A DNA stretch of 51,216 nt from Candidatus Methanophagales archaeon (GTDB lineage Archaea; Halobacteriota; Syntropharchaeia; Alkanophagales; Methanospirareceae). The position numbers and the translations under genes are program-made. Shown in pieces: positions 17,254-24,551 of this stretch. The notes under the pieces were generated by a model, which saw only the letters and a program-made list of their open reading frames with translations, searched no databases and was not told the origin of the DNA. Location of the stretch: contig JANJFQ010000003.1 in NCBI GenBank assembly GCA_025435355.1, positions 1 through 51,216 of the forward strand, in the 5' to 3' direction. Numbering within the stretch: position 1 is the first letter of the stretch; each line of letters opens with the position of its first letter.

Positions 17254-17829
17254 ATGCCAAAAAGAGCTCCTGACCCCATTACCGAGGAAGAGCTAAACAA
17301 AATCTTGGATGCTGCTATCGTGAATGATAGAGACTATCTGATATTAAGGCTACTTGCAAGAACTGGCATCCGTATAGGCGAGCTTTACGGTGTCTATAAG
17401 TGCGAGCGCGGGGAATGGATATACGGGATACAGAAGAAAGACATTGACTTCCGCAACAAAAGGCTGTGGGTATATTCGTTGAAGCAGAAGAGATATGTAA
17501 GAAGAGAGGTCCTTGCTGACGATGCCACTATGGTGTTGTTGAAGAGATACACAGAAAAGATGAAGCCCGAGGATTATGTTTTCAGAAGCATCTCGTATAG
17601 ACAAATTCAGAGGCTGCCGAAGAAGTATGCCCTGCAAGCAGGTGTAGATAAAAACGTGTCATGCCATTCCCTTCGACACTTCTTTATCACGCATTCCTGG
17701 AGAAAAGGGATAGACATTGCCAGACTCCAATACCTCGCAGGCCATGCTGACTTGAAAACCACAATGATATACACGCATGTGACGACAGAGGATGTGGAGA
17801 AAAAATATCGTGAGATATACGAGGAATAG
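17254..17829 (+). CDS. Tyrosine recombinase/integrase, catalytic-domain-only (191 aa)
   Basis: Catalytic residues in 'LARTGIRIGELYGV', 'CHSLRHFFITH', 'YLAGHADLKTTMIYTHV'. No room for an N-terminal SAM-like domain. Confidence 0.88.
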   Translation: MPKRAPDPITEEELNKILDAAIVNDRDYLILRLLARTGIRIGELYGVYKCERGEWIYGIQKKDIDFRNKRLWVYSLKQKRYVRREVLADDATMVLLKRYTEKMKPEDYVFRSISYRQIQRLPKKYALQAGVDKNVSCHSLRHFFITHSWRKGIDIARLQYLAGHADLKTTMIYTHVTTEDVEKKYREIYEE

Positions 17830-17917: not shown

Positions 17918-18187
17918 TCATTCACCAGAAGTCGCATATATTTCATAAGGCATTATCTTCTTGTTCGCCTTCTTCTTCCCTCTCAACTTATTTACGAGGT
18001 CGGCGGCTTTCTCCTTCTTCTTCCGCTCCTTCAACCTCCCCATTATGCTCGCCATCTCTTTCGCCTTTCCCTCACTGCCGTATTCCTTCTCCTCCTCCTT
18101 TACATACTCACCATCTACATCCTCTTCCACCGCTATTTCCTCTTCTTCCTCTTCCATTCCTTCAAAAACCATTACACCTACACTCAC
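17918..18187 (-). CDS. Candidate prokaryotic ubiquitin-like protein (Pup-like), C-terminal ...TSGE
   Basis: 89 aa, low-complexity acidic N-half, helical charged C-half, C-terminus IYATSGE-stop (Gly-Glu end as in mature Pup); directly downstream of Dop/PafA homologues and a Mpa-like ATPase on the same strand. Confidence 0.6.
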   Translation of the reverse strand: MSVGVMVFEGMEEEEEEIAVEEDVDGEYVKEEEKEYGSEGKAKEMASIMGRLKERKKKEKAADLVNKLRGKKKANKKIMPYEIYATSGE

Positions 18188-18255
18188 TTTAACTCCACCT
18201 CCTTACACTTTTATTACTTCTTTTTCTTGATAAAACTTTCCTCTTTTACCGTAAA

Positions 18256-19973: not shown

Positions 19974-21737
19974 TTATATCTCTTCTTCCTTTTCATTCCC
20001 CTTCTTCTCCTCTCTCCTTATCTCCTCTGCCTTCTCCTTTATACTCCCCCCATCCCACCCATCCAGTTCATCAAATCTATAAGTTTTGTTATTGGAATAC
20101 AGCAAATAGTCTAAATACGGATTCCTGACGATTCTGTTTCTTATTTCTCTGCTTATCTCCTCCTCCCAGCCCCTTATGTCCCCCTCCTCTGCAAGCAATC
20201 GCACGAGAACCTGCCTTGTTCCTTCCCCGCTCCTCCTCTCTCGCAAAAACACCACCACTGCACTTGGCATCCTCGCAAGTTCCGGATACCTCTCAAATAG
20301 CCTCGAATATTCTTCCCCAGTCGGCCTACTCACATCTATCCTTACCTTTGGCTCCCTGTTTATCGTTATCTTATTCCAGCTCAGGACAGCATTCTCGAAT
20401 TCTGACGCAAGTCTTACCCTTAGCTCGGCTCTCGAATCCTTTGGCGGGAACAATAACGCTTCCCCTATCTCCTCTTCCGTTAGTATTCGCTCCACCCCCA
20501 CCCTATCCACCACTTGCTCGTATAAGTCATAATCACAGAGATTGGCGAAATCAAACGATGCCGCTATCTCTTTCTCCACACGCTCATCCATCATGTATAT
20601 GCTCCGGTAATCAAACTTCCCCTTTGACGTGCATTTATATTCAAAATCATCTATCTCATTCTTTATCACCCATAACTTCATCACCCATTCTAAACGCCGC
20701 ACCACGTATGGGTCTTCAAGCAATCCCTGCTCGAATTTGTCACAAATCTTCTTGAACGTATCCAAAACGTATTTGTCCCAGTAAGATGTCTCTCGTTCCT
20801 CAAACAACTCCTCTATCACCGTAAGATAATAACAATTAAGATAATCAATCGCGGACTGAGTCCTCCCATTCATTAACTTTATCCGCCAATCACCTTCGGT
20901 ATTCACCGAAATATCTTTGAATGTTTGAAGCGGATTCCAGATGTCCTCTACATGCGAGATATTCCCTGTTTCTATTGCATCTATTACATACGATGTGAGG
21001 GCATTATTGAGCAGCCGTGTAACCTCAGAGCGAACACCCTCACCCGATGTAACATGGACACGATATTTATCCTTTGTACTCAACGGCTCGTCTCGTGTAG
21101 ATAATATAGGCCATTGAGAAGGCGACTCCGTGAGAACACGCTTCGAAACCATCGCTTTCGGCGAAATCACATATCTTATCCCTTCTTTTTCCGCTATAAA
21201 CCCGCCAGCGCCAAAGAATATCTTCCGAAGCACTAAAAACGGTATGAGCAAATTCTCTTTACCCGCAAATTTCTTCCTCTCCACCATGTATGATTCGTGC
21301 GTGCCCCGGCTATACCTCTTGTCTATCTCCACATTTGCTTTCCAGCATTGGATGCGTGCAGGGTTATTCCCTCTCTTCTTCAACTTTTCCCTGTATCTTT
21401 CATTTGCTTTCTCCACGCCTATCTGCATGTACAACTCCGACGCCTTATCGTATTTCAGCACCTCAAAAGCATTTCGGCATTCAGGCGTGGCTATCTCTAA
21501 GTGACCTCCAGTGCAGATGTAAATCCGAGAGCCATTTCTCAAAAAGCCATCGTTCCTCCTCCGTAACTTCGAGCATATCGCATCCGCTCCATCAAAAAAA
21601 GTATAATTCTCAAGTGCATGAATCACTTCATCCACATGATAAAATCTCGCATACCTGTACAAGCCAGGCGATTCTGAACTTATGCCCACTCTAAATTCGT
21701 GCTCTAACCCCTGCCATTTGTTCAAATCCTCCCCCAT
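19974..21737 (-). CDS. pafA: Dop/PafA superfamily protein, PafA-like (Pup ligase homologue); Cys at the catalytic Asp position
   Basis: 'WQGLEHEFRV', 'FLRNGSRIYICTGGHLEIATPEC' (cf. PafA '[23 protein letters not shown]'), 'LLIPFLVLRKIFFGAGG', 'PILSTRDEPLSTKDKYRVHV'. Start chosen at MGEDLNKWQG, 1 nt after the upstream ATPase stop. Confidence 0.85.
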   Translation of the reverse strand: MGEDLNKWQGLEHEFRVGISSESPGLYRYARFYHVDEVIHALENYTFFDGADAICSKLRRRNDGFLRNGSRIYICTGGHLEIATPECRNAFEVLKYDKASELYMQIGVEKANERYREKLKKRGNNPARIQCWKANVEIDKRYSRGTHESYMVERKKFAGKENLLIPFLVLRKIFFGAGGFIAEKEGIRYVISPKAMVSKRVLTESPSQWPILSTRDEPLSTKDKYRVHVTSGEGVRSEVTRLLNNALTSYVIDAIETGNISHVEDIWNPLQTFKDISVNTEGDWRIKLMNGRTQSAIDYLNCYYLTVIEELFEERETSYWDKYVLDTFKKICDKFEQGLLEDPYVVRRLEWVMKLWVIKNEIDDFEYKCTSKGKFDYRSIYMMDERVEKEIAASFDFANLCDYDLYEQVVDRVGVERILTEEEIGEALLFPPKDSRAELRVRLASEFENAVLSWNKITINREPKVRIDVSRPTGEEYSRLFERYPELARMPSAVVVFLRERRSGEGTRQVLVRLLAEEGDIRGWEEEISREIRNRIVRNPYLDYLLYSNNKTYRFDELDGWDGGSIKEKAEEIRREEKKGNEKEEEI

Positions 21738-21738
21738 T

Positions 21739-23373
21739 TTAAAAATGCATTCCCGTTTCTTCTTCCGGCATTCCCTCATACCCTGATGCTAATATCTCCT
21801 CCGCTCTTCTCTGCACAAACTTGTCAAATCCCTCTTTTAGGTGTCCCATGCTCACCCCTATATCCTCTATGCGTTTATACTTCTTCTGCAAATCATTCGT
21901 CTTGCTTCCCGCATCTAATATCACTTCAATTCTTTCATTATCCCACATTCTCTTCATATCCCCACTGCTGATATCTCCTTTTTTCAACATTAGCAATGTC
22001 CTCTCCTCCAATGCCTTATCCCTCGCATAGTTGAATATCTGGGCTATAAACCGCCCGGTTATCGTATCCGCCCTCCTTATCCGCCCTATTTCCGTCTCAA
22101 CATAAGTATCACTGTACATATAGCCGACCATCTCCCTAACCAGATACGCCCTCGCCTCTTCTTCTCCACCCCTTTCCTTTACCAGGTAGCAGTCAATAGG
22201 AATATTTTTAGCATATAAGGAGGCAATGGAATATGCAGCTTCCTTATCAGGTGCTGGAACCTCAATTATCTTGTCAAATCTCGCCCTGAATGCGGAATCT
22301 ATAAGATACAACCTGTTCGTCGCTCCTATCACCGTAAGGTGTGGATGCAGAGCATGGAAACCCTCCAACAGGTCCAGTAGTTGCCCGGTAACTCTCTCCG
22401 GCGCTCCCGAGGAACCTGTGTACATGCCCCTTTCCTGTGCTAACGCATCTATCTCGTCAAAGAAGATTACACCATAGTCATTTTCCCCTTCCTCTAATTT
22501 AGCGTTCGCAGTCTTGAACACCATTCTCACATTCTTCTCTGATTCGCCAAGCCACATGCTGAAAAGCTCTCCTGCTCCTACCTTCATAAATTCACAATTC
22601 GGTAATGCGGATGCCAACGCCTTTGCACACATCGTTTTCCCGCATCCTGGCGAACCATACAGAAGTATCTTTCTCGAACCTTCTCCATATTTTGTGTAAT
22701 CGTCAGGATTTATCATCGGAAGAACAATGCTCTTTATTAATTCCTGTTTTACCTCCTTCAAGCCCCCAATGTCATTAAAACTCACCTCAGGGCTCTTCGT
22801 GACTTCATAGCGGGAGAATTCCTTTGTCTTGTAACTCTTCTTTATGTCAAACGTGCCGGGGAGAAGTCCTACCTTCATCCCCTCTTTTATCTCTTCCTTC
22901 TCTTCTTCTCTTAGCTTTTTATATAATCTACCACGTCCTTTTCCCGTGGATATTTCAACTATCCATTCATCTTCAGTGTCGTCCTTCCTCAACTCCTCTA
23001 TCTCCCCCACCTCTAAATCCACCATCCGGTCATATACCTTCGTGATTCCTATGGTAAATCCACTGGGGTTATTCCTATCCGGGATGCGCCCTATGAAGAC
23101 ATATTTCCCTTCTTGTAGCTCCCTTATTTCTTCCTCAGTAAGCGTTCCGTATGGCAAAGCCTTTAACGCACCATTCAAATTCACGATGGCGCCCTCATCA
23201 GTCTTTTCCACTACGAATCCACAGTCTAAAGGCGGTGACCTCGCTTTTGACACAAGTTTCTCCAAATCAGCTTTATACGCTTCTGTCTCCTCGTATTTCC
23301 TCCTCAACCGCCGGTAGTCACTCTCTAACCGTTCATATTCGTATCTTGGAATATAGTCCACCCTTTCTCCCAT
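21739..23373 (-). CDS. Proteasomal AAA ATPase, ARC/Mpa-like (coiled coil - OB-like region - AAA)
   Basis: N-terminal coiled coil 'YEYERLESDYRRLRRKYEETEAYKADLEKLV'; 'VSFNDIGGLKEVKQELIKSIVLPM'; Walker A 'GSPGCGKTMCAKALA'; Walker B 'VIFFDEIDAL'. The C-terminal insert 'MVGYMYSDTYVETEIGRIRRADTITGRFIAQIFNYARDKAL' parallels Mpa 'VVDRMYAEIDDNRFLEV...SGAMIQNVVDRAKKNAI'. Confidence 0.85.
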   Translation of the reverse strand: MGERVDYIPRYEYERLESDYRRLRRKYEETEAYKADLEKLVSKARSPPLDCGFVVEKTDEGAIVNLNGALKALPYGTLTEEEIRELQEGKYVFIGRIPDRNNPSGFTIGITKVYDRMVDLEVGEIEELRKDDTEDEWIVEISTGKGRGRLYKKLREEEKEEIKEGMKVGLLPGTFDIKKSYKTKEFSRYEVTKSPEVSFNDIGGLKEVKQELIKSIVLPMINPDDYTKYGEGSRKILLYGSPGCGKTMCAKALASALPNCEFMKVGAGELFSMWLGESEKNVRMVFKTANAKLEEGENDYGVIFFDEIDALAQERGMYTGSSGAPERVTGQLLDLLEGFHALHPHLTVIGATNRLYLIDSAFRARFDKIIEVPAPDKEAAYSIASLYAKNIPIDCYLVKERGGEEEARAYLVREMVGYMYSDTYVETEIGRIRRADTITGRFIAQIFNYARDKALEERTLLMLKKGDISSGDMKRMWDNERIEVILDAGSKTNDLQKKYKRIEDIGVSMGHLKEGFDKFVQRRAEEILASGYEGMPEEETGMHF

Positions 23374-23492: not shown

Positions 23493-24551
23493 ATGAAAGA
23501 GGAGAAAAGAAAAATACAGCTCACAGGCGGTTCAACTCTCACTATATCGCTACCTATAAAATGGGCGAGAGAAGCGGGTTTAAAGCAAGGAGATGAGCTC
23601 TCTTTAATCCAACGCAGTGATAACTCCCTCGTCATAACACCGGAGAAGAAGGAAAAAGACCAGATAAAATCCGCTGAGTTCGAGTTCTCGGAGGAAGAAA
23701 GCTTTGAAGACAACTTCAGGTATCTTATCGCTTATTACCTCGTTGGATACGACCTCGTAAAGCTTTTATCTCCCAACGGTTTCGGGGCTGAAGAAAGGAA
23801 GAGGATAAAGGAGGAGGTGAGGAAGAGGCTGATAGGCATGGAGGTCGTTGGAGAATCGTCAAGGGAAATAGCACTCCAAAGCTTTTTAAAATACGAAGAT
23901 TTTACACTTAGAGATGCGATACGGAGCATGTCTGAAATAATATTGTCAATGCATGCAGATGCGATTTCTTCGCTCAAAGAAAGCGACGCGAACCTTGCGG
24001 AAGATGTTATAGAGCGCGATAACGAGATAGACAGATTTTATTTACTTATTGTAAGGCAGCTCAAAGCTGCGATGAGCGACCCCGATCTTGCAAGGAAGAT
24101 AGGCGTGGGCAGGCAGCGCGACAGCCTGGGATACAGGATAATAGCAAAGTGCATGGAGAGGATAGGCGACCATGTAGAGAATATAGCGAAGAATTCCTGG
24201 ATGATAAATCCAAAAAGCACCGTATCGGGACCTGTATCCTTCGGGGGCAAAAGCTTAGAAGGCATAAAGGAAATCGGCTTCCGTGCCGAAAACCTGTTCA
24301 ATAAGACTCTGGCTTCCTTATCGAATACGAATATGAAAGAGGCGAATGAAGCGATAAGGGATGCAAATGCGCTGATAAATAAGTTAGAGGGAATAAATGA
24401 GCGGGTTCTGGCAGAAGAGCTGAGTATTACAGATAAAATACACGTTCTTTCTATCCTGGAGAGTTTGGGAAGAATAGCGAAGTATTGCACAGATATAGCA
24501 GAGGTAACGATAAATAGGGGGACAAAAATAGCAGGAGAATTGGAGTTTTAA
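23493..24551 (+). CDS. AbrB/SpoVT-type DNA-binding plus PhoU-domain protein
   Basis: N-terminal 'RKIQLTGGSTLTISLPIKWAREAGLKQGDELSL' swapped-hairpin AbrB motif, followed by PhoU helical repeats. Confidence 0.82.
   Translation: MKEEKRKIQLTGGSTLTISLPIKWAREAGLKQGDELSLIQRSDNSLVITPEKKEKDQIKSAEFEFSEEESFEDNFRYLIAYYLVGYDLVKLLSPNGFGAEERKRIKEEVRKRLIGMEVVGESSREIALQSFLKYEDFTLRDAIRSMSEIILSMHADAISSLKESDANLAEDVIERDNEIDRFYLLIVRQLKAAMSDPDLARKIGVGRQRDSLGYRIIAKCMERIGDHVENIAKNSWMINPKSTVSGPVSFGGKSLEGIKEIGFRAENLFNKTLASLSNTNMKEANEAIRDANALINKLEGINERVLAEELSITDKIHVLSILESLGRIAKYCTDIAEVTINRGTKIAGELEF

Follow-up and report, generated by a model that had tools for sequence, protein, structure and literature searches.

Pupylation is regarded as a bacterial process, and archaea are regarded as users of beta-grasp SAMPs. 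The small ORF that closes a minus-strand gene cluster of an archaeal genome raises the question of whether its 89-aa product is a Pup-like protein modifier encoded together with the enzymes that would handle it. The window analysed here is a stretch of 51,216 nucleotides (contig JANJFQ010000003.1, assembly GCA_025435355.1) from ANME-1/Ca. Methanophagales, whose genome encodes its own 20S proteasome and PAN. To our knowledge no archaeal pupylation system has been described, and no report of one was found in the literature searched, with most subscription papers and preprints outside its coverage. The best reading of the cluster is a putative, divergent archaeal pupylation system of ANME-1 and Alkanophagales, complete-looking and apparently undescribed. 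The probability given to its central element, that the 89-aa protein is a modifier handled by an enzyme of the PF03136 family, is about 0.84.

Organization of the gene cluster

The cluster codes, in the order of transcription, for an AAA ATPase, a 601-aa protein, a 519-aa protein and, last, the small protein (Table 1). The small ORF reported in the initial annotation is present, on the minus strand, with the last codons quoted there (GAA ATA TAT GCG ACT TCT GGT GAA TGA). The protein terminates in ...KKIMPYEIYATSGE, followed by the TGA stop. Its gene is found directly downstream of the 519-aa gene, from which it is separated by a 68-bp gap. Purine-rich GGGGG/GGAGG stretches occupy the position matching its Shine-Dalgarno sequence upstream of many homologues. 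The conserved start of the 601-aa ORF is probably Met15 at 21737 (587 aa), 1 nt after the stop codon of the ATPase gene.

Two plus-strand ORFs were noted next to the cluster. The one at 17254-17829, convergent with the small gene, codes for a tyrosine recombinase/XerA-like protein of only 191 aa (the catalytic part) and may be an integrase remnant. The other, at 23493-24551, is divergent from the ATPase gene and codes for an AbrB/MazE-type domain fused to PhoU domains.

Table 1. Features of the minus-strand cluster, with coordinates in the window.
Feature	Position	Strand	Basis
Putative Pup-like modifier, 89 aa, GTG start at 18187, end ...NKKIMPYEIYATSGE	17918..18187	-	alignment, codon analysis, charge
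Modifier regions: acidic N-terminal part, basic helix-forming part, conserved tail	within 17918..18187	-	
Shine-Dalgarno AAGGAGGT, 9 nt 5' of the modifier GTG	18197..18204	-	
Dop-like Pup_ligase-family protein, 519 aa	18256..19815	-	Pfam PF03136 5.3e-65; best PDB match Dop 4b0r 1.4e-34
PafA-like Pup_ligase-family protein, 601-aa ORF	19974..21779	-	Pfam PF03136 2.3e-60; alignment with PafA 4b0t
Mpa/ARC-like AAA ATPase, 544 aa	21739..23373	-	Pfam AAA 7e-34; TIGR03689 pup_AAA 2.6e-44, below cut-off

The candidate modifier, its C-terminus and its distribution

The description of the protein as an acidic N-terminal half followed by a basic second half is correct, since residues 1-40 carry a net charge of -15 and residues 41-78 one of +12. 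In the alignment of 29 homologues (81-102 aa; 89 in the window) the acidic N-terminal part varies and the C-terminal half hardly changes at all, which places the ORF far beyond chance. The last 36 codons, compared among 48 distinct 3' ends, display a median dN of 0.048 and dS of 1.23 (ratio 0.037) and are under extreme purifying selection. A chance ORF or a contaminating bacterial contig is a practically negligible explanation. The source is a MAG contig, the only point found in its favour, and both variants are ruled out by the dN/dS of 0.037 and by the recurrence of the same cluster in ANME-1/Alkanophagales assemblies that are independent, number in the dozens and come from many sites.

Invariance of the C-terminal Gly-Glu among relatives had been set beforehand as the test on which the Pup proposal could fail, and the proposal passed it. 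All 48 distinct ends finish in G-E or G-Q. The penultimate residue is Gly throughout, the final one is Glu in 47 and Gln (CAG) in one, none extends further, and the stop codon directly behind is variously TGA, TAG or TAA. The terminal residue is preceded by Ser-Gly in 46 ends and by Ala-Gly in the other two, and the actinobacterial diglycine (GGE/GGQ) is found in none of the 48. The initial statement that no deamidation is needed holds for the 47 ends in which Glu is encoded and fails for the sole Gln-ending modifier, which comes from contig JAOZPO010000050.1 of an assembly with ~6x coverage. Bacterial Pups likewise vary between Glu and Gln at their last position.

The 89-aa protein has no match among Pfam and NCBIfam profiles, that of Pup included. 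Its alignment to Nonomuraea Pup by hhalign has a probability of 0.1%, and the modifier profile finds only chance coil matches in the PDB. The archaeal protein not being alignable with bacterial Pup, the claim made here is limited to a Pup-like function and does not extend to homology. The sporadic Pup systems outside actinobacteria, later named UBact in part, resemble the archaeal cluster in gene neighbourhood and in the G[EQ] end of the modifier, while their hosts are all bacteria. They occur in Nitrospirae, Verrucomicrobia, Planctomycetes and Deltaproteobacteria, and bacterial Pups are described as sharing a length of 50-90 residues, a G[EQ] C-terminal signature and a gene that adjoins a PafA gene (Iyer et al. 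2008, PMC2588565). The archaeal modifier was rated as conforming to this length and signature, and its gene lies beside the 519-aa PafA/Dop-family gene in the window and in most relatives. A Pup-like function is thus supported by gene context and C-terminal signature, together with co-occurrence. This is the part of the initial "candidate divergent Pup" that stands; it does not reach as far as membership of the Pup family, as sequence homology is undetectable.

The presence of the modifier tracks that of the ligases across the genomes of the phylum. PF03136 ligases are coded by 52 of the 53 genomes of the order and by none of the 344 other genomes of the phylum. The modifier is present in 48 of the 53, Alkanophagales included, and absent from the same 344, apart from one marginal match to its profile in genome G361 (E 0.001, 20 bits), which lies inside an 845-codon frame and was dismissed as a coiled-coil match. 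Where contigs are long enough to show the gene order of the cluster, it is nearly always conserved. The modifier gene is retained even where it lies on a different contig from the ligases, as in some genomes, both of the Alkanophagales among them. Four genomes have ligases and no modifier; in two of them (G020, G028) the contigs break off within the 519-aa gene or immediately after it.

It is quite improbable that the small ORF codes for a conserved basic helical bystander, such as a nucleic-acid- or ribosome-associated factor or an antitoxin, with another protein acting as the true modifier. The lack of Pup homology, the Lys-rich helix and a gene that can be located away from the ligases would fit such a protein, but its extreme C-terminus is the most invariant region and ends exactly at G[EQ] with three different stop codons in use, and its co-occurrence with the ligases is strict.

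Viral contigs contained no sequence related to the modifier or to one of the two enzymes and thus give no hint that the system is of viral or mobile origin; the search of plasmids returned actinobacterial comparators only. Note that one 92%-complete ANME-1 genome (G034) has neither PF03136 genes nor modifier while genomes of the same genus carry them, a possible case of joint loss or of an assembly gap. The ANME-1 cluster is also carried by contig DYFG01000031.1, whose title 'Candidatus Nitrosotalea sp.' looks like a labelling error.

Two enzymes of the PafA/Dop family

The two long ORFs score 220.5 and 205.3 bits against Pfam PF03136 (gathering threshold 25), and their best solved-structure matches are Dop and PafA. 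Their NCBIfam scores lie below the PafA/Dop equivalog cut-offs (TIGR03686, 551 bits; TIGR03688, 492 bits), with 192 bits for Dop and 148 for PafA in the 519-aa protein and 170 and 166 bits, respectively, in the 601-aa protein. The GhExE motif of core strand 1 reads GIEQE in the 519-aa and GLEHE or GIEHE in the 601-aa proteins. In the numbering of A. cellulolyticus (Acel) Dop, taken from the 4b0r alignment (residue roles from PMC3511204, PMC8599861), the 519-aa protein retains GhExE, Arg90, Tyr92, Asp94, His97, Glu99, His155, Asn157 (these last two in HxN), Arg227, His231 and His241, and carries the substitutions Glu156 to Gly and Glu229 to Gln. Its catalytic Asp is kept in the motif IYNDMGHLE. 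Dop features a Dop-loop with a conserved Trp before strand 2 (PMC8599861); an invariant Trp-Asp (MWDLITEV) of the 519-aa protein is found nearly at the position of Trp47 of this loop, in a loop about half as long as that of Dop. The 519-aa protein would be the likelier depupylase.

The active-site motif of the 601-aa protein, FLRNGSRIYICTGGHLEIATPEC, has the spacing of Corynebacterium PafA with Cys (Cys89) in place of the catalytic Asp that precedes the HxE of strand 2. This Asp is D94 of Acel Dop and D64 of Corynebacterium PafA, where the trapped complex 4BJR has an engineered Asn. The Cys is present in all 35 orthologues compared. Further changes are HxN to HxS and Arg205 to Lys, while GhExE, Glu99, HE and Arg227 are retained; a Trp like that of the Dop-loop is absent from the alignment of this protein. 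The catalytic Asp is essential in the PafA and Dop enzymes studied. Decay of the 601-aa protein is unlikely because its motif is otherwise intact and its orthologues are more conserved (72-94% identity to the window copy) than those of its 519-aa partner (62-91%). Altered chemistry and a regulatory role are both compatible with these features. PafA-like spacing and flanking sequence suggest that the 601-aa protein is the likelier ligase.

A less probable alternative is that the 519-aa protein is the only catalyst, for ligation as well as removal, and that the 601-aa protein, with its catalysis altered or lost, has a regulatory role, e.g., as a substrate adaptor or an inhibitor. The former keeps the catalytic Asp and HxN, both changed in the latter along with Arg205, and one enzyme can perform both reactions because PafA itself is an efficient depupylase (PMC13091356). 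Yet the 601-aa protein is the more conserved of the two, and the residues that it retains would be dispensable for a dead paralogue. If the 601-aa protein is the ligase, as preferred here, a use of its active-site Cys in the role of the catalytic Asp, possibly via a covalent modifier-Cys thioester, is a speculative and rather unlikely step. If true, this would give the glutamine-synthetase fold its own version of the thioester chemistry performed by ubiquitin E1/E2 enzymes. Whether the catalytic Asp acts as base or as nucleophile is debated, and the natural exchange of this Asp for Cys in the strongly conserved, ligase-like 601-aa protein allows the question to be tested directly.

In a tree with five actinobacterial rows the two archaeal groups come together, instead of the 601-aa proteins pairing with PafA and the 519-aa proteins with Dop, and a 601-aa/PafA group is rejected (AU p 0.010); the branches that meet are long. 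Because of this grouping and its long branches, the terms "PafA-like" and "Dop-like" refer here to motifs and make no claim of orthology. An AlphaFold2 model of the 601-aa protein (mean pLDDT 42, from 20-21 near relatives, too shallow) was discarded. Several ANME-1 genomes (G010, G023, G012, G005, G013) code for a third, unlinked PF03136 paralogue of ~500 aa (loci L061:4918-6423, L152, L153, L154 and L156). In these paralogues, too, Cys replaces the catalytic Asp (RIYICNAHPEIATPEC, RIYLCNFSLEIATPEC), and no small modifier-like G[EQ] partner was seen in their fetched flanks.

The ATPase, the predicted pathway and known systems

The ATPase scores 152 bits against TIGR03689 pup_AAA (cut-off 505). 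Mpa/ARC proteins are characterised by an N-terminal coiled coil, tandem OB domains, an AAA module and a C-terminal GQYL. The archaeal ATPase has an N-terminal helix, ~140 residues of beta structure (a predicted tandem OB), the AAA module and a C-terminal TGMHF. Its AlphaFold model, of low confidence (57, from 20-21 near relatives), has a helix at residues 10-44 and strands at 51-179 ahead of the AAA module. With this low-confidence model Foldseek places mycobacterial Mpa in each of the first 15 ranks, with 506-538 columns aligned, and Rpt and PAN only after them. With caution, the modelled ATPase thus appears to resemble Mpa most, while sequence search with its 190-aa N-terminus alone retrieved nothing significant. 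The Mpa-like ATPase would be an additional motor, because a true PAN (588 bits) is present in the same genome, as are 20S alpha and beta subunits, which are coded outside the cluster. Its C-terminus is TGMH[FYL] in all 36 copies compared. That of Nonomuraea ARC is TGQYL, which is a 20S docking tail (PMC8755798).

The modifier might also be attached and recycled without proteasomal degradation, the ATPase acting as an unfoldase or depupylation aid without the 20S proteasome. This is possible, though improbable. A tail that is neither TGQYL nor HbYX, 20S genes located elsewhere in the genome beside PAN, and the retention of ATPase and pupylation enzymes by some actinobacteria without proteasomes (PMC3511204) are in line with it; however, an invariant C-terminus is expected of a docking tail, and the best fold match of the low-confidence model is the proteasomal Mpa.

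For the preferred proteasomal pathway we infer conjugation, the reaction direction of each enzyme, ATPase docking and degradation as follows. A PafA/Dop-family enzyme, in its active site of glutamine-synthetase fold, would use ATP to activate the side chain of the encoded C-terminal Glu and would then link it to lysines on target proteins. The other PF03136 enzyme would remove the modifier and deamidate its rare Gln form. The Mpa-like ATPase would receive the basic helix of the modifier on its N-terminal coiled coil, with the acidic, probably disordered N-terminus of the modifier serving as the threading end, and would feed tagged proteins into the archaeal 20S proteasome, alongside PAN.

Common to the cluster and the bacterial Pup-proteasome system (Mycobacterium, Corynebacterium) are a small G[EQ]-ended modifier coded directly downstream of a Dop-like gene, two PF03136 enzymes, a dedicated Mpa-like ATPase and a 20S proteasome in the same cell. 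The differences are the archaeal host, the location of the 20S genes, a modifier that ends in S-G-E rather than G-G-E, lacks detectable sequence similarity and has a basic instead of an acidic helix, the Cys of the PafA-like enzyme and the tail of the ATPase. The archaeal SAMP/Urm1 and PAN-proteasome pathway likewise combines an archaeal protein modifier with a proteasome, but SAMPs have the beta-grasp fold and are attached through a C-terminal diglycine with the help of E1-like enzymes, none of which is found in the ANME-1 cluster. The missing similarity to Pup, the loss of Asp in the 601-aa protein, the pairing in the tree and the basic helix count against the pupylation reading.

If true, this reading extends Pup-type tagging to archaea, where it would exist next to PAN and 20S, and it bears on the origin of Pup-proteasome systems. 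The hosts, ANME-1 and Alkanophagales, are methane and alkane oxidisers of sediments. The near-invariant C-terminal half of the modifier provides a precise mass-spectrometry signature for existing ANME-1/Alkanophaga proteomes: the remnant predicted on a target Lys is IMPYEIYATSGE after trypsin, which cuts after the last Lys, and IYATSGE after Glu-C.
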